Shown piece after piece: positions 52,233 to 62,297 of a DNA stretch of 64,000 nucleotides (within the stretch, counting starts at the first letter, position 1; every line of letters begins with the position of its first letter). The stretch comes from an uncultured Chlorobiales bacterium (GTDB lineage Bacteria; Bacteroidota; Chlorobiia; Chlorobiales; Chlorobiaceae): positions 62,001-126,000 of the forward strand of contig CAIYTH010000013.1 in assembly GCA_903929135.1 (NCBI GenBank), in the 5' to 3' direction. Made by a program: the position numbers and the translations under genes. The notes under the pieces were generated by a model. The model saw only the letters and a list, made by a program, of their open reading frames with translations. It had not been told where the DNA came from and searched no databases.

Positions 52233-52460
52233 TTAAAACTTCAAAATGATTTGAGCAAGAGGGAAGGAGTTCTTGAGGGACTGGATCAGCAGGTCCTCTT
52301 CAAACGGTCCGAAAGCATCGACATCGATCGGGAAGTCTTCACTTCCGCTATCAAGGAGATGCTCGTATTGCCCATTACTGTTTTTCAGGAGCAAATCGAC
52401 GCACCAGCTTTCCGGATCAGATGCGCTGTTCCACCAGACAATGACATGTTCCTTTGACAT
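52233..52460 (-). CDS. Small unknown protein of 75 residues
   Basis: It starts at ATG 52460 with a textbook GGAGG 7 nt upstream; the longer frame is untranslated. The sequence (MSKEHVIVWWNSASDPESW...) is acidic, soluble and hydrophobic-Trp rich at the N-terminus. I recognise no family. It lies 58 bp downstream of the KdpD-like gene on the same strand and could be the last gene of the kdp transcript. Confidence 0.7.
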   Translation of the reverse strand: MSKEHVIVWWNSASDPESWCVDLLLKNSNGQYEHLLDSGSEDFPIDVDAFGPFEEDLLIQSLKNSFPLAQIILKF

Positions 52461-52518
52461 CCTGCCTCCGTAGTTACATTGAATATTCAATCCGACGCAT
52501 TGGTCGGTCAGACGATTC

Positions 52519-54198
52519 CTACCTCTTTTTCTGCCCGGCAATCCAGTTCCGGAGAATCTCCATGACTTCGATTTCCGATCGGGCCTGACGCATGGCTGAG
52601 CGCCACTGGCTGTCACCTGACATTCTGCTGATCATCCCGAGCAGCCTGATGTGGCTGTCCGGCCGGCTGATGGGTGAGAGCATGAGAAACATGATGGTTG
52701 CCGTATTGTTCGATCCGGGGTCATAAATCCCGAGTTTGCTGACGCCGATGGCGAGCACGGACGACTCTATACCTTCGAGCCGCGCATGGGGCAAGGCTAT
52801 TTCTTCGCCGATAAACGTCGCGCCCTGTTTCTCACGTTCGAGTATCGCTCTCCATGCGTAATCGAACGGAATGGATGCATGTGTCCGGCAAAGCGCTTCG
52901 AGCAATTGACGCAGAGCGGTTTCCTTTTCGGACACTTCATTCCAGAGCAGGACATTCGCATTGAAGATCGACGCCTCACGGTCATCAGGCGCCTGTTGCC
53001 TGCCCCTCAGGTTCGCACGAATACCCGTCAGGTAATCCGCGGACCGAAGCTGCTTTCGCGTTTCAGCCGGTTGGCGGATGTCGGGAACCACGATCGTGAT
53101 ACCCTGGCTTTCCCCGATCAGTCGTTCGATCAGCGTGCGTTTCCCGGTGAGGCGGCGAAACAGGGAAGGGCGTTCTCCCGAATTGCCGACCACGATATGG
53201 CCGACGCGGTACTCCTTCGCGAATTGCAGGACGGTTGAAACAATGTCGTTGCCTTTGTAGATGAAAACGGTCGCGCCAAGCTGCTGGGCGAGGGCAAGCG
53301 TGTTGGACAGCCTGCGCTGTATGCCGGCATCGATCATTTCCGGACTTTCCGAAAGGCTCTGGACATAGACGGCATACCAGTTGCGGTTCAGGCGACCGGC
53401 GATCCGGGATGCATACCGGAGCAGTGCCGCACTGTTTTCGGACTTTGAACTCAGGCAGACCATTACCTGGTCCGGACTCGATGCCGCTTCATCCTGCAGG
53501 GGGCTTCTTCGGTTTGAATCGATCTGGGCGGCCACCTCGCGCAAGGTCAGTTCCCGAAGCTGCTCCAGGTTTTCCTGCCTGAAAAAATTCGAGAGTGCCG
53601 ATTCCGCCTTGCCCGCGAGATAGACCTTGCCTTCTTTGAGCCGCTGCAGCAGGTCGTCCGTGGCAATATCGACATTGACCAGTTGATCGGCCTGCAGGAC
53701 GATCCGGTCCGGAAGGCGCTCCTTGACCCTGACGCCGGTTGCCTGCTCGACGGTTTCATAAAGGCTTTCAAGGTGCTGGACGTTGAGCGTCGAAACCACA
53801 TGAATGCCGGTCGCCAGGATATCCTCGACATCCTGGAACCGCTTTGCGTTTCTTGAGCCCGGAACATTGGTATGAGCGAGCTCATCGACCAGCACAACGG
53901 CAGGACGCCGCCGGATGATGGCCTCGATGTCCATTTCGGAGATTTCGATACCGCGATAGGTCAGCGTTTTGCGGGGTATGATCTCGAGGTTATCGAGCAG
54001 GGCTTCCGTCTCTTTTCGGCCATGCGTTTCGACGATCCCCACAACGACATCGATTCCCTGCTCCCGAAGACGCTTTGCTTCCAGCAGCATCTGGAAGGTT
54101 TTGCCAACGCCGGCACAGTAGCCGAGGTAAATCCTCAGGCGACCCCGCTGCGATCGTTTGATCAATCGGAGAAAACTGTCTGCCCTGTTTTCTTCCAT
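52519..54198 (-). CDS. KdpD sensor-USP region fused to a PTS EIIA domain, no kinase
   Basis: A 559-residue cytoplasmic protein. Residues 1-~225 are the KdpD sensor domain, with Walker A GYCAGVGKT (26-34) and Walker B VVLVDELAHTNVPGSRN. Residues ~245-375 are the universal-stress-like domain of KdpD. After a linker, ~400-559 is an EIIA domain of the fructose/Ntr type with phosphorylatable His471 in GEEIALPHARLEG. The four membrane helices and the HisKA/ATPase of normal KdpD are absent. It is the last kdp gene, 18 bp after kdpC. It may read PTS phosphorylation and K+ state and pass this to the separate kinase/regulator upstream. Confidence 0.9.
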   Translation of the reverse strand: MEENRADSFLRLIKRSQRGRLRIYLGYCAGVGKTFQMLLEAKRLREQGIDVVVGIVETHGRKETEALLDNLEIIPRKTLTYRGIEISEMDIEAIIRRRPAVVLVDELAHTNVPGSRNAKRFQDVEDILATGIHVVSTLNVQHLESLYETVEQATGVRVKERLPDRIVLQADQLVNVDIATDDLLQRLKEGKVYLAGKAESALSNFFRQENLEQLRELTLREVAAQIDSNRRSPLQDEAASSPDQVMVCLSSKSENSAALLRYASRIAGRLNRNWYAVYVQSLSESPEMIDAGIQRRLSNTLALAQQLGATVFIYKGNDIVSTVLQFAKEYRVGHIVVGNSGERPSLFRRLTGKRTLIERLIGESQGITIVVPDIRQPAETRKQLRSADYLTGIRANLRGRQQAPDDREASIFNANVLLWNEVSEKETALRQLLEALCRTHASIPFDYAWRAILEREKQGATFIGEEIALPHARLEGIESSVLAIGVSKLGIYDPGSNNTATIMFLMLSPISRPDSHIRLLGMISRMSGDSQWRSAMRQARSEIEVMEILRNWIAGQKKR

Positions 54199-54216
54199 CG
54201 GAAATGCCTCCGGGTT

Positions 54217-54822
54217 TTACTGTCGGGGAGCGATGCTGTTTTTCTGTGCCGCATCGAGTTCCATATTCAACGCCAATACATTGACCAGTCCCTCGCCGGA
54301 CCAGAAGATCTTCTGGCCGGCGGCATGGCGACGCACCGACGCCTCGACATCGGAAACCGCCATCCCTCTCGCGAGTGCAACCCCCGGGGCTTGAAAAAGC
54401 GCGGCGCGAAGCGTAATGAAGGGATCAAGCCCGCTGCCGGATGCCGCTGCAAGATCGGCAGGAAGGGGACGCCTGGAATCGGCACCGAACTCTGCGATCG
54501 TCTGCACGGCACGTTTCCTTACTTCAGGGCCTGCCGGCGAGAGATTGCTCCCCCCGGCTGCCGCAGCGTCGTACTTGACCGCCGAAGGCCTTGCCCGGAA
54601 ATAGAGCGGACGTGTAAACGACTGGGCGATCAGCCTGCTGCCGACCACCTTTCCGGCCTGGTTCCGAAGCAGCGACCCGGAAGCGGTTTCCGGAGTCGCA
54701 ATGCGGGCAAAGCTGAAAATGAACAGCGGATAGAGCCCGCCGCACAGCAGGATGGTCGCGATTGCGATTCTGAGCGATGCGGCAAGATTGGCTCCGGCAT
54801 CTTCGATGATTGTGGTTTGCAT
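54217..54822 (-). CDS. kdpC: K+-transporting ATPase subunit C
   Basis: A 201-residue subunit stabilising the KdpFABC complex. One N-terminal transmembrane helix (about 17-40, IAIATILLCGGLYPLFIFSFA) is followed by the periplasmic domain with GKVVGSRLIAQSFTRPLYFRARPSA, SNLSPAGPE, and the C-terminal ALARGMAVSDVEASVRRHAAG. It lies 13 bp after kdpB. Confidence 0.96.
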   Translation of the reverse strand: MQTTIIEDAGANLAASLRIAIATILLCGGLYPLFIFSFARIATPETASGSLLRNQAGKVVGSRLIAQSFTRPLYFRARPSAVKYDAAAAGGSNLSPAGPEVRKRAVQTIAEFGADSRRPLPADLAAASGSGLDPFITLRAALFQAPGVALARGMAVSDVEASVRRHAAGQKIFWSGEGLVNVLALNMELDAAQKNSIAPRQ

Positions 54823-54835
54823 GTGAGTCTACTCC

Positions 54836-56941
54836 TTAGAACAGGCCGGTGATTGAAAGCATCATGTCGATCAGTTTGATGCCGACAAAAGGCACCAGGA
54901 CACCGCCGACACCATAAACGAGAAGATTGTTGCGCAGGAGCGCCTCCGCACCGAGGGGTCGGTATCTGACGCCCCTGATGGCAATCGGGATGAGCATGGG
55001 GATGATGATCGCATTGAAGATCAACGCCGATAGGATGGCGCTGTCCGGCGTCGAAAGCTGCATGATGTTCAGTACCCGGAGCCCGGGTATGGCCAGCAGG
55101 AACATGGCCGGAATGATGGCGAAATATTTTGCGACGTCATTGGCGATCGAGAATGTGGTCAGCGCTCCCCGGGTCATCAGCAGCTGCTTGCCGATCTCGA
55201 TGATCTCGATCAGCTTGGTCGGATCGCTGTCGAGATCGACCATGTTCCCCGCTTCCTTGGCCGCCTGTGTCCCCGAATTCATCGCCACTCCGATATCCGC
55301 CTGTGCAAGGGCCGGAGCGTCGTTCGTGCCGTCACCCATCATGGCGACGAGCCGCCCGGATTGCTGCTCCTTGCGGATATACTGCAGTTTGTCTTCGGGT
55401 TTCGCCTCGGCGATATAGTCGTCCACACCTGCCTGTTTTGCGATTTCAGCCGCCGTCAGCGGATTGTCGCCGGTCACCATCACGACCCGCAGCCCCATGG
55501 AGCGCAACCGTCTGAACCGGTCGGTGATCCCCGGCTTGAGCACATCGGACAACTCGACTATCCCGAGCGCCCGGTTTCCGTCGGCGACAACGAGAGGTGT
55601 CATGCCTTTCCTGGCAACCGAATCGACAATAGCCTGAAGTTCATCGGGAAGGGTGCCACCCTGATCTGCGACGTAGTTTCGCACGGCGTCGCCGGAGCCC
55701 TTCCGCACCTTTCTTCCGTCTGGCAGATCGAGGCCGCTCAGCCTGGTCTGGGCTGAAAAGGCGATGACTTCCGATCCTGATGTTTCAGCGGGTGCATCCT
55801 CGCCGAGGATGTTTTCGCTAAGTACGACAATGGAACGTCCTTCCGGAGTCTGGTCGCCGAATGAGGCCTCCATGGCAATCCTGGCGAGATACCTTGAATC
55901 CACTCCGTTCAGCGGGAGGAAGCTGGTCGCCTGGCGATTGCCCATCGTGATGGTGCCGGTTTTGTCGAGCAGCAGCGTATCGATGTCGCCGGCCAGCTCG
56001 ACGGCCTTGCCGCTTTTTGCAAGCACATTGGCCGAAAGGGCCCGGTCCATGCCTGCCAGCCCTATTGCGGAAAGCAGGGCGCCGATGGTGGTCGGGATGA
56101 GGCATACCAGCAGGGCAACCAGCGTCGGCACTGAGATGGTAATGCCGAAATACCTGCCGATCGGCCAGAGCGTACCCGTAACCATCAGAAACGCCAGGGT
56201 CAATCCGGCAAGCGTCACCGTCAACGCGAGTTCGTTCGGGGTTTTCTGGCGAACGGCACCCTCAACCAGGGCGATCATCCTGTCGAGGAAAGAGTTGCCG
56301 GCCGAGACGGTGATTTTCACCACAATCCGGTCGGAGATAACCCTGGTGCCGCCCACGACCCCCGAACGGTCTCCGCCAGCCTCTCTCACAACAGGTGCCG
56401 ATTCGCCCGTGATTGCCGATTCGTCGACCATCGCAACACCTTCCGCCACCTCGCCGTCACCGGGAATGAGATCGCCTGCGTTGACCACGACCAGGTCGCC
56501 CTCCTGCAGTTCGTCTGAACTGACCTGCGTCACCCTGCCGTCACGAAGCCTGTTTGCCGCCGTGCTCTGCCTCGTCTTTTTGAGGCTGTCGGCCTGCGCC
56601 TTTCCACGAGCTTCGGCGAGCGATTCGGCAAAATTCGAAAACAGCACGGTCAGCCAGAGAACCAGCAGCACGGCCAGATTGTAGATGAGCCCGTCCCTGC
56701 CGGTCGCGGCGTCGTAGATCGTTATCAGCGTCGTCAGTATGGCCCCGATTTCGGTAATGAACATGACGGGATTCCTGGCCATGACCACGGGATTGAGCAT
56801 CCTGAACGACTGCACGATCGCAGACCTGACCTGCGAACCTTCGAATATGGAGGCGTTTCGCGCCCGCCTCCGTTCTGTTTTACCCGGCAGACTCCCGGCC
56901 TGGTTGCCGGCAGTTGTGCTGCTCTTTGGATTATTCATCAT
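54836..56941 (-). CDS. kdpB: K+-transporting ATPase subunit B (P-type ATPase)
   Basis: The 701-residue catalytic subunit. Phosphorylation site DKTGTIT, TGES in the actuator domain, GDGTNDAPALAQADIGVAMNSGTQAAKEA in the hinge, and seven membrane helices are present. It has an N-terminal cytoplasmic extension of about 30 residues with GNQAGSLPGKTERRRAR. It lies 15 bp after kdpA. Confidence 0.97.
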   Translation of the reverse strand: MMNNPKSSTTAGNQAGSLPGKTERRRARNASIFEGSQVRSAIVQSFRMLNPVVMARNPVMFITEIGAILTTLITIYDAATGRDGLIYNLAVLLVLWLTVLFSNFAESLAEARGKAQADSLKKTRQSTAANRLRDGRVTQVSSDELQEGDLVVVNAGDLIPGDGEVAEGVAMVDESAITGESAPVVREAGGDRSGVVGGTRVISDRIVVKITVSAGNSFLDRMIALVEGAVRQKTPNELALTVTLAGLTLAFLMVTGTLWPIGRYFGITISVPTLVALLVCLIPTTIGALLSAIGLAGMDRALSANVLAKSGKAVELAGDIDTLLLDKTGTITMGNRQATSFLPLNGVDSRYLARIAMEASFGDQTPEGRSIVVLSENILGEDAPAETSGSEVIAFSAQTRLSGLDLPDGRKVRKGSGDAVRNYVADQGGTLPDELQAIVDSVARKGMTPLVVADGNRALGIVELSDVLKPGITDRFRRLRSMGLRVVMVTGDNPLTAAEIAKQAGVDDYIAEAKPEDKLQYIRKEQQSGRLVAMMGDGTNDAPALAQADIGVAMNSGTQAAKEAGNMVDLDSDPTKLIEIIEIGKQLLMTRGALTTFSIANDVAKYFAIIPAMFLLAIPGLRVLNIMQLSTPDSAILSALIFNAIIIPMLIPIAIRGVRYRPLGAEALLRNNLLVYGVGGVLVPFVGIKLIDMMLSITGLF

Positions 56942-56956
56942 GTTTCCGGGATTTCG

Positions 56957-58627
56957 TTATTGAAGAGATGTCGAAAGGTAGTCGGCCACCGGTCCGAGGA
57001 CGGCGACAGGCATGAAGAGCAGAGCGCCGATCAGCAGCACGCTGCCGAGAATGACAACGGCGAAGAGCGGGGTATCGATGCGCAACGTTCCTGAGGTTTC
57101 GGGAACCGGCTTCTTGGCTGCCATTGATCCGGCGATTGCCAGAGGCAGGACAATGGGGATATACCGTCCCAGAAGCATGACCAGTCCGGTCGCCACATTC
57201 CACGGCACGGTTCCGTCACCCAGGCCTTCGAAGCCGGAGCCGTTGTTGGCCGCTGCCGAACTGAACTCGTAGAGAATCTCCGTGAATCCGTGAGCGCCCT
57301 TGTTGAGCACGGTGCCTGCGCCCCATGAGGTCGATGCGAAAACGGCCGTCCCGACAAGGATCAGCAGGGGATGGACCAGCAGCGCGAGCAGCGCCAGCTT
57401 CATCTCATGGGTTTCAACCTTCCGGGCGCAATATTCAGGCGTCCTTCCGACCATCATGCCGCAAATGAAGACCCCGACGATGATGAAGATGAACATGTTG
57501 ATGAACCCGACTCCCACGCCCCCGAAAATCACATTCAGCCACATCCCGGCGAGCGGGACCAGGCCGGTCAGGGGATTGAGGCTGTCGTGCATGCAGTTGA
57601 CCGACCCGTTGCTGGTCGCCGTCGTAACGGCCGCCCATATCGCCCCTGTGGCTGGACCGAAGCGAAGCTCTTTGCCCTCGAGATTCGACATGGCGTCGAT
57701 GGGCAGTCCACTGAAGGCCATGGCCGGAGCACTTTCCAGGGAAAGGGCAATGCCGGCTTTCAGGAGAAGCATGAGCAGCATCACGGCAAAGATCACTGCG
57801 GCGTGGCGCATCCTTCCGGTAATGCGTCCGAACATCCAGACCGATGCCATCGCAATCAGGGGAATGCTCATACATTCGATGGCGTTGGTCAGGAACGAGG
57901 GGTTTTCAAAAGGGTGCGTCGAATTAGGCCCGAAAAATCCTCCGCCGTTCGTGCCGAGCTGCTTGATGGCCTCCATGGCCGCCACCGGTCCCCGGGCGAT
58001 GGTCTGCGTCGCCCCTTCGAGCGTTCGCGCCACGGCCGCCCCTTCGAACGTCATGGGTACCCCGCCGACAACAAGCAGCAGGGCGACCACGACGGAAAGC
58101 GGCATGAGCAGGAACAGTATGGCCCTGACCAGATCGCGGTAGAAGTTGCCGATCAGCGTTTTCCCCGCCAATGCCCTTGCCAGGGCCGCAAGGCAGGCGA
58201 TGCCGGTCGCTGCCGAAACAAACTGCAACCAGGTCAGGGCAAAAAGCTGGGAGAAATAGCTCATGGCCACTTCTCCCGAATAGTGCTGCAGGTTGGTGTT
58301 GGTCACGAACGAGCTTGCCGTATTGAAAATCAGGCTGGCTTCCAGAGCTCCCCTGCTGTCCGGGTTGAGCGGAAGCGATTGCTGAAATGCGAGCATGAGG
58401 ACGACGGCGGTGAACATGATGGCATTGAACGAGAGCATGGAGACCAGGTAACCTTGCCACCCCTGCTCCCTGTCGAGCATTTTACCGCCGGTTTTTCGCA
58501 GAAGCATTGCCAACCTTCCGTCAGCGGCATGTTCCGGAGGATTCATGACGGCAGTCATGAACCGGCCCAGCGGCCATGAAAGCACAACAGGCAAGCCAAT
58601 CAAAAGCAACAGCATGAGTATCGACAT
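56957..58627 (-). CDS. kdpA: K+-transporting ATPase subunit A (K+-channel-like)
   Basis: The 556-residue K+-binding and translocating subunit. It has ten or so membrane helices and selectivity-filter-like loops, including TNTNLQHYSGE, QLGTNGGGFFGPNSTHPFENP, TSNGSVNCMHDS and NNGSGFEGL. It starts with ATG 58627, 11 bp after the kdpF stop. Confidence 0.97.
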   Translation of the reverse strand: MSILMLLLLIGLPVVLSWPLGRFMTAVMNPPEHAADGRLAMLLRKTGGKMLDREQGWQGYLVSMLSFNAIMFTAVVLMLAFQQSLPLNPDSRGALEASLIFNTASSFVTNTNLQHYSGEVAMSYFSQLFALTWLQFVSAATGIACLAALARALAGKTLIGNFYRDLVRAILFLLMPLSVVVALLLVVGGVPMTFEGAAVARTLEGATQTIARGPVAAMEAIKQLGTNGGGFFGPNSTHPFENPSFLTNAIECMSIPLIAMASVWMFGRITGRMRHAAVIFAVMLLMLLLKAGIALSLESAPAMAFSGLPIDAMSNLEGKELRFGPATGAIWAAVTTATSNGSVNCMHDSLNPLTGLVPLAGMWLNVIFGGVGVGFINMFIFIIVGVFICGMMVGRTPEYCARKVETHEMKLALLALLVHPLLILVGTAVFASTSWGAGTVLNKGAHGFTEILYEFSSAAANNGSGFEGLGDGTVPWNVATGLVMLLGRYIPIVLPLAIAGSMAAKKPVPETSGTLRIDTPLFAVVILGSVLLIGALLFMPVAVLGPVADYLSTSLQ

Positions 58628-58638
58628 AGAAGACTCCT

Positions 58639-58719
58639 TTAGAATTTTTCGGGCGAAACCACGGCGATCATGAGATACGCCGCACAGGCGACCAGAACCG
58701 GCAACACGAAATACTCCAT
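58639..58719 (-). CDS. kdpF: K+-transporting ATPase subunit F
   Basis: A 26-residue single-helix subunit, MEYFVLPVLVACAAYLMIAV then VSPEKF. The PEKF-type end and place just before kdpA are characteristic. An ideal GGAGGT lies 5 nt upstream. Too short to appear in most ORF lists. Confidence 0.9.
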   Translation of the reverse strand: MEYFVLPVLVACAAYLMIAVVSPEKF

Positions 58720-58720
58720 T

Positions 58721-58819
58721 TCAACCTCCGATTGATTGGTGAATAAGGGCAGCAAGGCCCGCTAACAGCAGAAAAATCAGCAACCCCAGATAGATGGCCT
58801 GATAGGCGTTCATATTCAT
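58721..58819 (-). CDS. Novel 32-residue membrane peptide between kinase and kdpF
   Basis: It begins MNMNAYQAIYLGLLIFLLLA and continues with a Gly/Ala/Leu helix ending HQSIGG, predicting a single transmembrane span. Its ATG overlaps the kinase stop (ATGA, 58816-58819), and GGAGG lies about 10 nt upstream. It has no PEKF-type end, so it is not simply a second KdpF. It may modulate the pump or the kinase. Confidence 0.7.
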   Translation of the reverse strand: MNMNAYQAIYLGLLIFLLLAGLAALIHQSIGG

Positions 58820-60675
58820 GCCTGTTCTCCCTCCATGAGCTTCGTCGTTTTTGAAAGCTGCGGCTTGCAGCGCGGCAGCGTAAAGCTGAACAGGGATCCT
58901 TTACCCGGAAGGCTTTGTGAGGAGACGGCTCCACCCTGGGCTTCGACGAGTTCCTTCACGATGGAAAGCCCGAGTCCGACCCCTGACCGCACATCCTGAC
59001 CGGGAACCCTGAAAAACTGCTCGAACAGATGCGCCATATGTTCAGAAGCAATGCCCGCACCGGTATCTTCGACGAAAAACCGTACCATCCCATCTTCCTG
59101 TGTGGCCCCGACGGTCACCTTACCCCCGGGCATGGTAAACCGCAGCGCATTCGAGAGCAGGTTGGCGAATACATGCCTGATACCCGCCGGATCTGCAACG
59201 ACATCGGGCAGCTCTCCGGAGGTGACCGCTGTCAGGGTCACATTCCTGTCTTTCGCTTCGCCCAGAAACGGTTCCATACCTTCCCGGACAAGCAGCGCCG
59301 GCTTGACCGGGCGAGGTTCGAGCTGTCCCTTGCCCGATTCGATGCGGTTCAGGTCGAGCAGGTCATCGAGCATGTCGACCAGTCGTTCACAGTCTTCCCG
59401 GGCACCGACGAGCAGTTCACTCTGCTTTCCGTTCAGGGCGCCGACCTCTTCGTCGAGCATCAGGTGAATTGACATACGCAGGGAGGTCAATGGCGTTTTG
59501 AGCTGATGGGAGACGGTTGATACCATACCTCGTTTCATCTCCTGCTGTTCGTGTAACTGCGTCACATCGCTGATCATCAGAATCGATCCGGTGACTTTGC
59601 CGGATTCCGATACGATCGGTATGGTAGTTGGCTGGAAGAAGTACTCCTTGTTGCCGACGAACTGCTGTACATATTTGTCCTCGAGACCTGCTGGTTTCAG
59701 GTCGTCAATGGAGTTGTCAAGGAGTCCCGGCATCCATTTGAAGGGAAGCTCCCTGACTGAAACTCCCGGTTTCAGGCCAAAAAACAGGACCGCTTTTTCG
59801 GTCGAGACCTGTACTTGTCCCTGGGGGTCGAGTACAGCCACCGAGAAGGGCAGGGCCCTGAAAACATCGTCTGTCAGCTTGCGGCTCCGGATCAGGTTCT
59901 CCAGGTCGCTGTTCCGGTTCTGACGCAGGGCGATCAGCATGGCGTTGAACGATCTGGACAGCTGGCCGACTTCATCCTGGGCAACAGTCTGGAGGACAAC
60001 TTCCAGATTGCCACGCCGAATCTCTTCGGTCGTGTCAATCAGGTTCCGCAAAGGATTCAGAACCCAACGGTGAATCTGATAGCCAAGCAGCAGGGCGAGC
60101 AGGACGCTGGCCATGCCGATGGAAAGCACCCGCCAGCGTGCCGATATCGAAAGGTTGCGTGATGCGTTTTTTTCCGAAATCATGTTCGCCTGATTCATCT
60201 CGAGAATCTCGCGGGAAACCAGCCTGATTTCGTTGGAGAGAGGCACCAGCCTTTTCAGGTAAAGGAGTCGTCGTTCAGGCTCAGGCCCCTGGCTCTCCAT
60301 GATCGTGGAGAGAATCCTGAAATAATCCTCTGACAGACGGAGAACACGATCAGCACGCTCCTGTTCTCCCGGTAAGGTGATATTGTGCAGTTCACGATCG
60401 AGCGCGTCGTTGAATTTCGCTTTCTGCCCGTTGACCATGCGCCTGCTCTCTCCGCTGTTACCGAGGAGGGAGTTCAGCACCAGGCTGTCGATGCTTCCCA
60501 ACGCATCTTTCATATCCTGGCAGGCCACCACGCTCAGGTAATTCTGCTTCAGCACGATGGCCAGGGATTTTCCGAGCTCGTCGATCTGCCCGATCGTCAT
60601 GAGGCTGATGGTGGCCACGATGGCCAGCATTCCACTCATGCCGAGCAGCAGCTTCTGTCTGATTCCGATGTTCAT
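58816..60675 (-). CDS. Membrane sensor histidine kinase (KinB-like), kdp-linked
   Basis: A 619-residue sensor kinase. Transmembrane helix 1 (about 8-28), a helical periplasmic sensor (about 30-180), transmembrane helix 2 (182-204), HAMP (about 205-255), PAS (about 265-375), phospho-acceptor His390 in VSHQLKTPLTSL, and the HATPase N box NLLSNALRF, G1 VEDTGAGIAS and G2 GVGLGLSIVK. The layout resembles Pseudomonas KinB, partner of the NtrC-like AlgB. It lacks a KdpD sensor domain; that part sits in a separate protein at 52519. A sigma54-type promoter lies just upstream. Confidence 0.93.
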   Translation of the reverse strand: MNIGIRQKLLLGMSGMLAIVATISLMTIGQIDELGKSLAIVLKQNYLSVVACQDMKDALGSIDSLVLNSLLGNSGESRRMVNGQKAKFNDALDRELHNITLPGEQERADRVLRLSEDYFRILSTIMESQGPEPERRLLYLKRLVPLSNEIRLVSREILEMNQANMISEKNASRNLSISARWRVLSIGMASVLLALLLGYQIHRWVLNPLRNLIDTTEEIRRGNLEVVLQTVAQDEVGQLSRSFNAMLIALRQNRNSDLENLIRSRKLTDDVFRALPFSVAVLDPQGQVQVSTEKAVLFFGLKPGVSVRELPFKWMPGLLDNSIDDLKPAGLEDKYVQQFVGNKEYFFQPTTIPIVSESGKVTGSILMISDVTQLHEQQEMKRGMVSTVSHQLKTPLTSLRMSIHLMLDEEVGALNGKQSELLVGAREDCERLVDMLDDLLDLNRIESGKGQLEPRPVKPALLVREGMEPFLGEAKDRNVTLTAVTSGELPDVVADPAGIRHVFANLLSNALRFTMPGGKVTVGATQEDGMVRFFVEDTGAGIASEHMAHLFEQFFRVPGQDVRSGVGLGLSIVKELVEAQGGAVSSQSLPGKGSLFSFTLPRCKPQLSKTTKLMEGEQA

Positions 60676-60698
60676 GTTTCAACCTTTATCTCCTCTTT

Positions 60699-60714
60699 TA
60701 CAAATAGCGTGCCA
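60699..60714 (-). promoter_or_regulatory. Sigma54-type (-24/-12) promoter of the kinase-kdp operon
   Basis: On the minus strand the sequence reads TGGCACGCTATTTGTA. It matches TGGCACN5TTGCW at all but one consensus base: GG at -24 and G of the -12 pair (GT in place of GC), spaced by ten bases. The predicted start site lies near 60688, 13 nt before the kinase ATG; AAAGG at 60683-60687 would then be the ribosome-binding site. The upstream neighbour is a sigma54 activator. Confidence 0.7.
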
Positions 60715-60776
60715 GACGCAGGATCAAGGCTGATCGGGCGGATCAGGGGGAGAATGCGGTGGTTTCGGTTTTAAAA

Positions 60777-60805
60777 TGCACGGTCGAAAACCATGCGATC
60801 GTGCA
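60777..60805. promoter_or_regulatory. Inverted repeat, candidate enhancer site for the NtrC-type regulator
   Basis: Half-sites TGCACGGTCG (60777-60786) and CGATCGTGCA (60796-60805) are inverted copies with 9 of 10 bases matching and a 9-nt spacer. The centre is about 77 bp upstream of the -24 element and about 100 bp from the predicted start, the usual place of enhancer sites for sigma54 activators. The rest of 60676-60929 shows nothing else. Confidence 0.65.
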
Positions 60806-60929
60806 AAATTCAACGTCGCACAGCAGGGAACTCAGCCGTGAGGAGAGGTGGGAATACAATTGCTTTCAAGAGAGGGGAATCCGTCGGGAAGGGGGGGGCA
60901 AGAGCTGTTTACCGTTTCGGCACCATCGT

Positions 60930-62297
60930 TTACAGCCCGTACTGCTTGCGCTTTCTCCAGAGGGTCGCCTTGTCGATGCCAAGCACCACGGCAGCTTCAT
61001 GCACCGATGATGTCGAGGCGAGCACCCTCCTGATATGCAGCTCCTCGATGGTTTCGAGTTTTATCCGGTCTCCGATCATGATTTGCCGTTGCACGGCTGA
61101 CGCCATGGACTCCGGGAGAAGTTCCTCCCCGATCATCGACGTCGTGCACAGGATCACCGCCCTTTCGACCACGTTTCGAAGCTCGCGGATGTTTCCGGGC
61201 CAGCCATAGTCGCGAAAAATTTGCAGCACCGCGGGGCTGAATCCATGAATTGCCTTGTGGTTCTGGGCATTGAAAAAAGCAAGCATGTTGCCGGCCAATG
61301 CTTCGATATCCCCGGAACGCTCGGCAAGAGATGGAAGTGTTATCTGAATGACGTTGAGGCGATAAAAGAGATCCTCCCTGAATCGGCCCGATGCGACTGC
61401 CGATTCGAGATCGACATTGGTGGCGGCGATGATCCTGACATTCGCTTTCCGGGTGCGCTGATCGCCGACGCGTTCATATTCCCGTTCCTGGATGAATCGC
61501 AGGAGTTTCGACTGGATCGAAAGCGGCAGATCACCTATCTCGTCAAGGAAAAGCGTTCCCCCTTCGCAACTCGCGACACGTCCCTGGTTGTCCCTGAGGG
61601 CCCCCGTAAAAGCGCCCTTGACGTGACCGAACAACTCGCTTTCCAGAAGCTCCTGGCTCAGCGCGGGGCAGGAGATGACACCGAAAGGGTTGCCGGATCG
61701 ACGGCTCCAGCGGTGGATGAGCCGGGCAAGCATGGTTTTGCCCGTGCCACTCGGTCCCTGCAGCATGACAACCGCATCGGAAGTCGAAACCTGCCGGGCA
61801 AGTTCGATCACCCGCTGCATTGGGGGATACACGGAGTTCAGCGACACATCCGGGTCGTTGCGATCCAGATCGTCCTGCAGGAGATTGATGCGCTGCTCCA
61901 GCGTCCGGAGCGCAGCCACTCGTTCAAGGACGAGCTTGAGCTGGCCCGGCATGAACGGCTTGGGAAGATAGTCGACAGCACCGCGCCTCATCGCTTCGAC
62001 CGCCGTATCCACCGATGCGAATGCCGTTATGACCACGATCTTCAGCCAGGGAGAGCCGGCAAGCAGCGAGGAAACCAGATCGAGTCCGCTTTCAAGGCCC
62101 AACCGGAGATCGACAAACGCGAGATCGAAAATCTGGAGGCCTGCTTCGGTAAGGGCATCTTTCGCGTTCGAGACAGCCGTGACCTTGTGGTGTTGCAGGT
62201 CGAAAAACATCATCATGGTTTTTCTGATGTTGCTTTCGTCATCCACGACAAGCACATGCATCGGGGATGAAGGCGATACTTTATCAACAAGCTCCAT
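60930..62297 (-). CDS. NtrC-family response regulator (AlgB-like sigma54 activator)
   Basis: A 455-residue regulator. A receiver domain with Asp63 (AFVDLRLG) is followed by an AAA+ domain with Walker A GPSGTGKT (181-188), the sigma54-contacting GAFTGA loop (228-233), Walker B GTLFLDEIGDLP and the R-finger region. The Fis-like HTH (SSVHEAAVVLGIDKATLWRKR) is C-terminal. AGGTGA precedes the ATG. It lies 254 bp upstream of the kinase-kdp operon, and should phosphorylation-dependently activate the sigma54 promoter there. Normal Kdp systems use KdpE, an OmpR-type regulator, instead. Confidence 0.95.
   Translation of the reverse strand: MELVDKVSPSSPMHVLVVDDESNIRKTMMMFFDLQHHKVTAVSNAKDALTEAGLQIFDLAFVDLRLGLESGLDLVSSLLAGSPWLKIVVITAFASVDTAVEAMRRGAVDYLPKPFMPGQLKLVLERVAALRTLEQRINLLQDDLDRNDPDVSLNSVYPPMQRVIELARQVSTSDAVVMLQGPSGTGKTMLARLIHRWSRRSGNPFGVISCPALSQELLESELFGHVKGAFTGALRDNQGRVASCEGGTLFLDEIGDLPLSIQSKLLRFIQEREYERVGDQRTRKANVRIIAATNVDLESAVASGRFREDLFYRLNVIQITLPSLAERSGDIEALAGNMLAFFNAQNHKAIHGFSPAVLQIFRDYGWPGNIRELRNVVERAVILCTTSMIGEELLPESMASAVQRQIMIGDRIKLETIEELHIRRVLASTSSVHEAAVVLGIDKATLWRKRKQYGL

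Follow-up and report, generated by a model that had tools for sequence, protein, structure and literature searches.

A sigma54-linked kdp operon in Chlorobiaceae with a KdpD-Usp-EIIA fusion: a putative mobile cassette for control of potassium supply

Introduction

How is a Kdp potassium pump controlled when the KdpD encoded beside it has no histidine kinase and ends in a domain of the phosphotransferase system (PTS)? The question is raised by a locus of an uncultured Chlorobiales bacterium of the family Chlorobiaceae (assembly GCA_903929135.1, contig CAIYTH010000013.1, positions 62,001 to 126,000). The minus strand of this 64,000-nucleotide stretch, hereafter the window, encodes an NtrC-type response regulator (RR), a separate membrane histidine kinase (HK), the pump genes kdpFABC, and a KdpD-Usp-EIIA fusion protein. 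A preliminary description, made from the DNA letters alone, was right in nearly every detail of what it observed, including gene positions and strand, and went on to infer a "rewired" regulation in which a sigma54 route integrates a membrane signal with the PTS phosphorylation state. Comparison across genomes supports the sigma54 route for the pump and suggests another point of entry for the PTS. On balance, the locus is probably a self-contained, laterally mobile cassette for control of K+ supply, with one transcriptional and one post-translational arm.

Results and Discussion

The fusion (559 aa; 52519..54198, on the minus strand like all genes of the operon) combines a KdpD domain (residues 17-226; PF02702, E 1e-92), a Usp domain (about 244-350; Pfam E 1e-4, slightly under the cut-off) and a PTS_EIIA_2 domain (415-551; E 5e-20), and a domain search found no HisKA within it. 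Its parts match the folds of the KdpD N-domain (2r8r), the KdpD Usp domain (7ji4) and E. coli EIIA-Ntr (1a6j); the predicted structure is weak overall (mean pLDDT 68, pTM 0.36), and the domain folds were used, not the domain arrangement. Because the fusion is the sole PF02702 match in an assembly that is 91.7% complete, no full-length KdpD was found elsewhere in it. The reported lack of a standard KdpD/KdpE pair, and of a normal pair encoded elsewhere, holds to that extent, with KdpE not searched genome-wide.

This architecture is widespread. In a class sample of 98 genomes, 44 had KdpD above the cut-off, in 49 places, of which 47 were examined (L012, in genome G078, and the partial G077 were left out): 46 Chlorobiaceae loci, including the window, and G090, from another family of the same order. 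All 46 Chlorobiaceae proteins comprise KdpD, Usp and EIIA, and G090 encodes a 380-residue KdpD without EIIA. A scan of GTDB genomes, from which the best 80 of 117 loci were retained and three duplicates of Chlorobiaceae loci (L124, L131 and L136) removed, yielded 48 distinct loci outside the family, 47 of them with EIIA; the exception was L156. These loci come from Desulfobacterota/"Deltaproteobacteria", Hydrogenedentota, Aminicenantes, Verrucomicrobia, Riflebacteria, Dadabacteria, Acidobacteria, Krumholzibacteriia, Phycisphaerales and a few unplaced records. The resulting set of 93 fusions (46 from Chlorobiaceae and 47 from other phyla) underlies the counts below. Where at least 9.5 kb of upstream sequence was available, 23/29 other-phylum fusion loci had the order RR-HK-kdpA-kdpB-kdpC-kdpD-EIIA, and such a collinear cassette across many phyla is new as far as we have searched. 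Since the arrangement is so common, "rewired" was too strong a word for it.

In a tree of the KdpD domain (midpoint-rooted, for drawing only), the Chlorobiaceae form a group (100/98) nested within the fusion group (97/97, L156 included), and G090 falls with the short forms of Bacteroidota. We therefore rejected a local gain of EIIA in Chlorobiaceae. Given this topology, the simplest reading is that Chlorobiaceae apparently acquired the cassette laterally. The comparison with Chlorobi and Bacteroidetes genomes proposed in the preliminary description showed that the fusion is universal among the Chlorobiaceae loci examined, and that other Bacteroidota mostly lack EIIA (19/20). The exception, L160 (G220), encodes a 556-aa KdpD whose EIIA tail shows weak similarity, and sits on a long branch; this fusion possibly arose independently.

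The preliminary description called the fusion protein kinase-less. This stands for the histidine kinase and appears wrong for the KdpD domain, which keeps the Walker residues of an atypical serine kinase (PMC11018627). In E. coli, that domain phosphorylates KdpB on S162, the serine of the TGES motif, and stops the pump; an appreciable fraction of species has KdpD/Usp forms that lack the HK (PMC11018627). The main text of that study has no mention of EIIA, PtsN or sigma. In the window fusion, Walker A starts at residue 26 and Walker B is D105/E106. Walker A (G-X5-GKT) is present in 93/93 fusions and the Walker B Asp-Glu in 92/93 (Asp-Asp in L110), and TGES is found in 90/90 KdpB matches that span the motif, 68 of which come from fusion loci in Chlorobiaceae and other phyla. 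Arg186 of the fusion is invariant in our alignment A1, its equivalence to E. coli R190 being judged by eye. The residue after GKT is Tyr in 57 fusions, Trp in 22, Phe in 7 and Leu in 7, and all seven Leu proteins belong to L070-L076, loci in which no kdp genes are visible. The serine-kinase site thus seems to drift in some loci without KdpB, a pattern that would follow if KdpB is the substrate in the other loci; as L070-L076 look like one group (three are in the tree), the drift amounts to few events.

The EIIA assignment was sound: sequence and fold both place the C-terminal domain in the EIIA-Ntr type, and its phospho-acceptor histidine (His471 in the window) is conserved in 93/93 fusions. 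HPr is encoded in the window's assembly. Enzyme I (EI) occurs in 90/98 class genomes and 73/74 of those of good quality, and in 46/47 other-phylum fusion genomes compared with 8/19 non-fusion Bacteroidota genomes, a contrast confounded by kinship. It is also present in G220, the sole non-Chlorobiaceae Bacteroidota genome with a fusion among those examined. As a separate protein, PtsN interacts with KdpD in E. coli, Pseudomonas putida and rhizobia, and whether this effect depends on phosphorylation varies between species (PMC13104625), so the sign of an EIIA effect here is not predictable.

Transcriptional control of the operon by sigma54, as the preliminary description proposed, is well supported by conserved sequence features. 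The regulator (60930..62297) has receiver Asp63, an AAA+ domain with GAFTGA at residue 228 and a Fis-type helix-turn-helix; the kinase (58816..60675) has HAMP, HisKA and HATPase domains. This agrees with the membrane kinase and NtrC-type activator reported upstream on the same strand, although the label "KinB/AlgB-type" is justified for the general architecture only, the kinase sensor region having no informative solved relative. Between the two genes lie a predicted sigma54 -24/-12 promoter, TGGCACGCTATTTGTA (60699..60714, 23 bp 5' of the kinase start), and two putative upstream activating sites 32 bp apart: site 1 (60800..60814), where GTTGAATTTTGCACG is a diverged CTTGCAnnnTGCAAG, and site 2 (60768..60782). 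The window's genome encodes rpoN (PF04552, E 9e-55).

Across loci, counting also the non-fusion loci L036 and L156, a sigma54-type site occurs within 150 bp 5' of the kinase gene in 60/73 cases (2.6 expected from shuffles), 52 of them at 10-60 bp. Seven of the other eight come from the L070-L076 group, where TGGATCGCTGGCTGCA, or a sequence close to it, lies by eye within KimA coding sequence. Elsewhere the site is at chance level (RR 3/59, KimA 1/18, KdpA 2/64, KdpB 1/65, KdpC 2/73, KdpD 5/95). Two copies of CTTGCAnnnTGCAAG precede the kinase gene in 45/72 loci (0.6 expected; L156 in, L036 out), spaced by exactly 32 bp in 35 of the 45; as the motif was picked out by eye on these related loci, the weight of this result comes from comparison with other genes in the same set of loci (RR 1/59, KdpA 0/63, KdpB 0/64, KdpD 1/94). 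A palindrome, TGCACGATCG-N9-CGACCGTGCA, at first taken by eye as a single site, was replaced by these paired sites.

The paired sites also precede the gene of another importer, KimA, in 15/18 cases (0.2 expected). Sigma54 control of KimA was not supported, with a sigma54-like site in 1/18 upstream regions (0.6 expected), and KimA likely has a different type of promoter despite the paired sites. By eye, YTATGTT follows the paired sites in most KimA upstream regions; it resembles the Bacteroidota -7 element. Regulators of the KimA loci L072-L075, L193 and L194 carry GSFPGA instead of GAFTGA, which suggests that they act independently of sigma54. Since the altered loop coincides in the KimA-only group L072-L075 with the lack of a convincing sigma54 site, loop and site may have been lost together.

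These KimA loci show that the module exists without the pump. In 13 Chlorobiaceae loci, KdpD-EIIA is kept and kdp genes are absent; 11 have KimA-HK-KdpD-EIIA (10 with the RR in view) and 2 end at contig edges. The only solved relative found for their 660-residue transporter was KimA (6s3k, E 5e-67). No KdpB above the cut-off was detected in eight genomes that have the module and lack a kdp locus (G050, G058, G061, G065, G068, G070, G072 and G084) of 80 to 100% completeness. KimA and kdp genes occur together in seven loci (L031, L045, L046, L047, L051, L052 and L058), and in L110 the importer in place of Kdp is TrkA (Pfam) with a TrkH-like protein (by eye). A second regulator-KimA-HK set (L180; G000:C22:3500-17500) is present in the window's own genome, with no KdpD in the 14 kb examined, its regulator 65% and its kinase 48% identical to those of the window. 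In Chlorobium ferrooxidans DSM 13031 (L083), a kdp module is followed on one contig by a regulator-KimA-kinase set.

Proposed mechanism and alternatives

From the genes, their domains, and the conservation and spread of promoter and sites, we infer a transcriptional arm in which low K+, or a linked membrane or turgor signal, would lead the HK to phosphorylate the NtrC-type regulator. The phosphorylated regulator would bind the paired upstream sites and activate the sigma54 promoter, driving kinase-kdpFABC-kdpD. In the post-translational arm, for which the catalytic residues are the guide, KdpD-Usp-EIIA would be a serine kinase rather than a transcription sensor, phosphorylating the TGES serine of KdpB when K+ is sufficient and so stopping the pump. 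The presence or absence of PTS phosphate on its histidine would let EIIA-Ntr set the serine-kinase activity, in either direction. It is more likely that EIIA gates this post-translational brake than transcription, and the earlier proposal of a PTS input to the sigma54 route is not supported in the form given.

Several observations weigh against this two-armed reading. The fusion persists in the 13 kdp-less loci, so that KdpB cannot be the sole purpose of KdpD-EIIA. In the window the residue after GKT is Phe, where E. coli has Trp; W39 and R190 form the adenine pair there, and a W39A/R190A double mutant is nearly inactive (PMC11018627). No EI match was found in the window's assembly (91.7% complete), which is likely an assembly gap, given EI in nearly all good-quality genomes of the class. 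The site motif was defined on the very loci in which it was then counted, and the window's own pair barely meets the threshold (17/24). Some kdp-type regulators have an altered loop (GAFTSA in L043 and L053, GAFTNA in L067) in operons that retain the sigma54 promoter. Finally, the authors of the Desulfovibrio vulgaris study interpret a similar arrangement, DVU3335/DVU3336, as a split HK (Rajeev et al., PMC3333781).

That interpretation leads to the main alternative, a split KdpD, in which the fusion would serve the adjoining HK as its cytoplasmic sensor subunit and tune the kinase/phosphatase balance of that HK, so that the sigma54 route would respond to PTS state after all. In E. coli, PtsN binds to KdpD and raises its kinase activity (PMC13104625), and KdpD-EIIA adjoins the kinase gene in loci without KdpB, with the order RR-KimA-HK-KdpD in 10 Chlorobiaceae loci and RR-TrkA/TrkH-HK-KdpD in L110. 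We nevertheless regard a split KdpD as rather unlikely: HK-regulator pairs occur with KimA and without KdpD in the stretch examined, including the second set in the window's genome, and fusions of kdp-bearing loci retain both Walker A and the Walker B Asp-Glu. More improbable still is a reading of EIIA as a structural tail or a vestige on a protein that behaves like short KdpD-Usp and responds to a nucleotide such as cyclic di-AMP (c-di-AMP). A diadenylate cyclase is encoded in 41/47 other-phylum fusion genomes, and the close relative L156 does without EIIA; against a dispensable tail stand the invariant His471 and the lack of a cyclase match in all 86 Chlorobiaceae genomes searched, where 11/12 genomes from the rest of the class have one. 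The c-di-AMP motif SXS-X20-FTAXY likewise occurs in 0/93 fusions, 92 of which have the E. coli-type RXXXR-X8-WXAVY, a weak test, as the motif is also found in 0/20 non-fusion forms of the phylum. The missing cyclase and the short EIIA-less KdpD of G090 had prompted the idea that EIIA substitutes for c-di-AMP; with the cyclase present in most other-phylum fusion genomes, this was rejected as a general rule and may apply inside Chlorobiaceae only.

Comparison with known systems separates what is new. Sigma54-controlled kdp with a separate HK and an HK-less KdpD is already known: in D. vulgaris, DVU3334 controls its own kdp operon, as mapped in 2011 (PMC3333781) and listed again in PMC4641369. 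Its locus (DVU3334-DVU3339) shares with the window the sigma54 regulator, the separate HK and the HK-less KdpD/UspA protein, but the passages on it that were consulted mention no EIIA and no KimA or Trk version. HK-less KdpD/Usp proteins of the Deinococcus geothermalis type (PMC11018627) likewise combine KdpD and Usp, keep Walker A and B, and are known with separate HK chains; D. geothermalis KdpD accepted E. coli KdpFABC as a substrate (PMC11018627). Unlike them, the fusion has a C-terminal EIIA-Ntr and the E. coli-type Usp motif, Chlorobiaceae have no c-di-AMP synthase match, and the score of the fusion for NCBIfam NF038185, the family of HK-less KdpD/Usp, is 352.6 bits, below the cut-off of 550. 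In the PtsN-KdpD systems of E. coli, P. putida and rhizobia, EIIA-Ntr also acts on KdpD, and rhizobial kdp operons contain ptsN2, but there a separate EIIA-Ntr meets a KdpD sensor kinase (PMC13104625), whereas here it is fused to an HK-less KdpD. Bacteroidota loci with short KdpD resemble the window in having a GAFTGA NtrC-type regulator by kdpABC and, in most examined, a separate HK; they differ in their commonest order, RR-kdpA-kdpB-kdpC-kdpD-HK (10/20), in regulators only 34-40% identical, and in the general lack of EIIA noted above. For the EIIA fusion with its invariant histidine, its breadth and the swap of importers, we found no precedent in the literature searched, in which subscription journals are thinly covered, so that absence is not established.

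Neighboring genes

The pump genes follow the kinase gene as described earlier: kdpF (58639..58719, 26 aa; Pfam KdpF E 0.035, below the family cut-off), kdpA (56957..58627), kdpB (54836..56941, with TGES) and kdpC (54217..54822). The preliminary description did not include a small membrane open reading frame of 32 aa with one membrane helix (58721..58819), which overlaps the kinase stop and precedes kdpF. Similar single-helix frames of ~27-33 residues, distinct from KdpF, recur, often across the kinase stop codon (L070, L071, L073-L076, L112, L144 and others, several without kdp genes); none matched a Pfam family above the cut-off. Downstream of the fusion, at 52233-52616, lies a small protein with the ending ...FGPxEEDxLIxSxKxSFP...; by eye, a protein with the same ending stands in L182 between regulator and KimA, upstream of KimA.

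Implications

A broader and more tentative reading, possible at somewhat below even chances, is that of a horizontally spread "potassium governor," in which the sigma54 pair and an EIIA-gated KdpD serine kinase would be plugged into KdpFABC, KimA or TrkAH, the kinase having taken, where KdpB is missing, either the importer present there or the HK as its new target. From the KimA and Trk versions one would predict KdpD substrates besides KdpB, and the conserved sites offer a regulon motif applicable across many uncultured phyla. In the debate over how PtsN and KdpD are linked, the fusion offers a natural "Rosetta stone," placing EIIA-Ntr on the serine-kinase half; as it has no histidine kinase, the PTS effect on the KdpD brake is directly testable in one protein. 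If such a governor exists, K+ uptake in these bacteria would be tied directly to the carbon/nitrogen state of the PTS.

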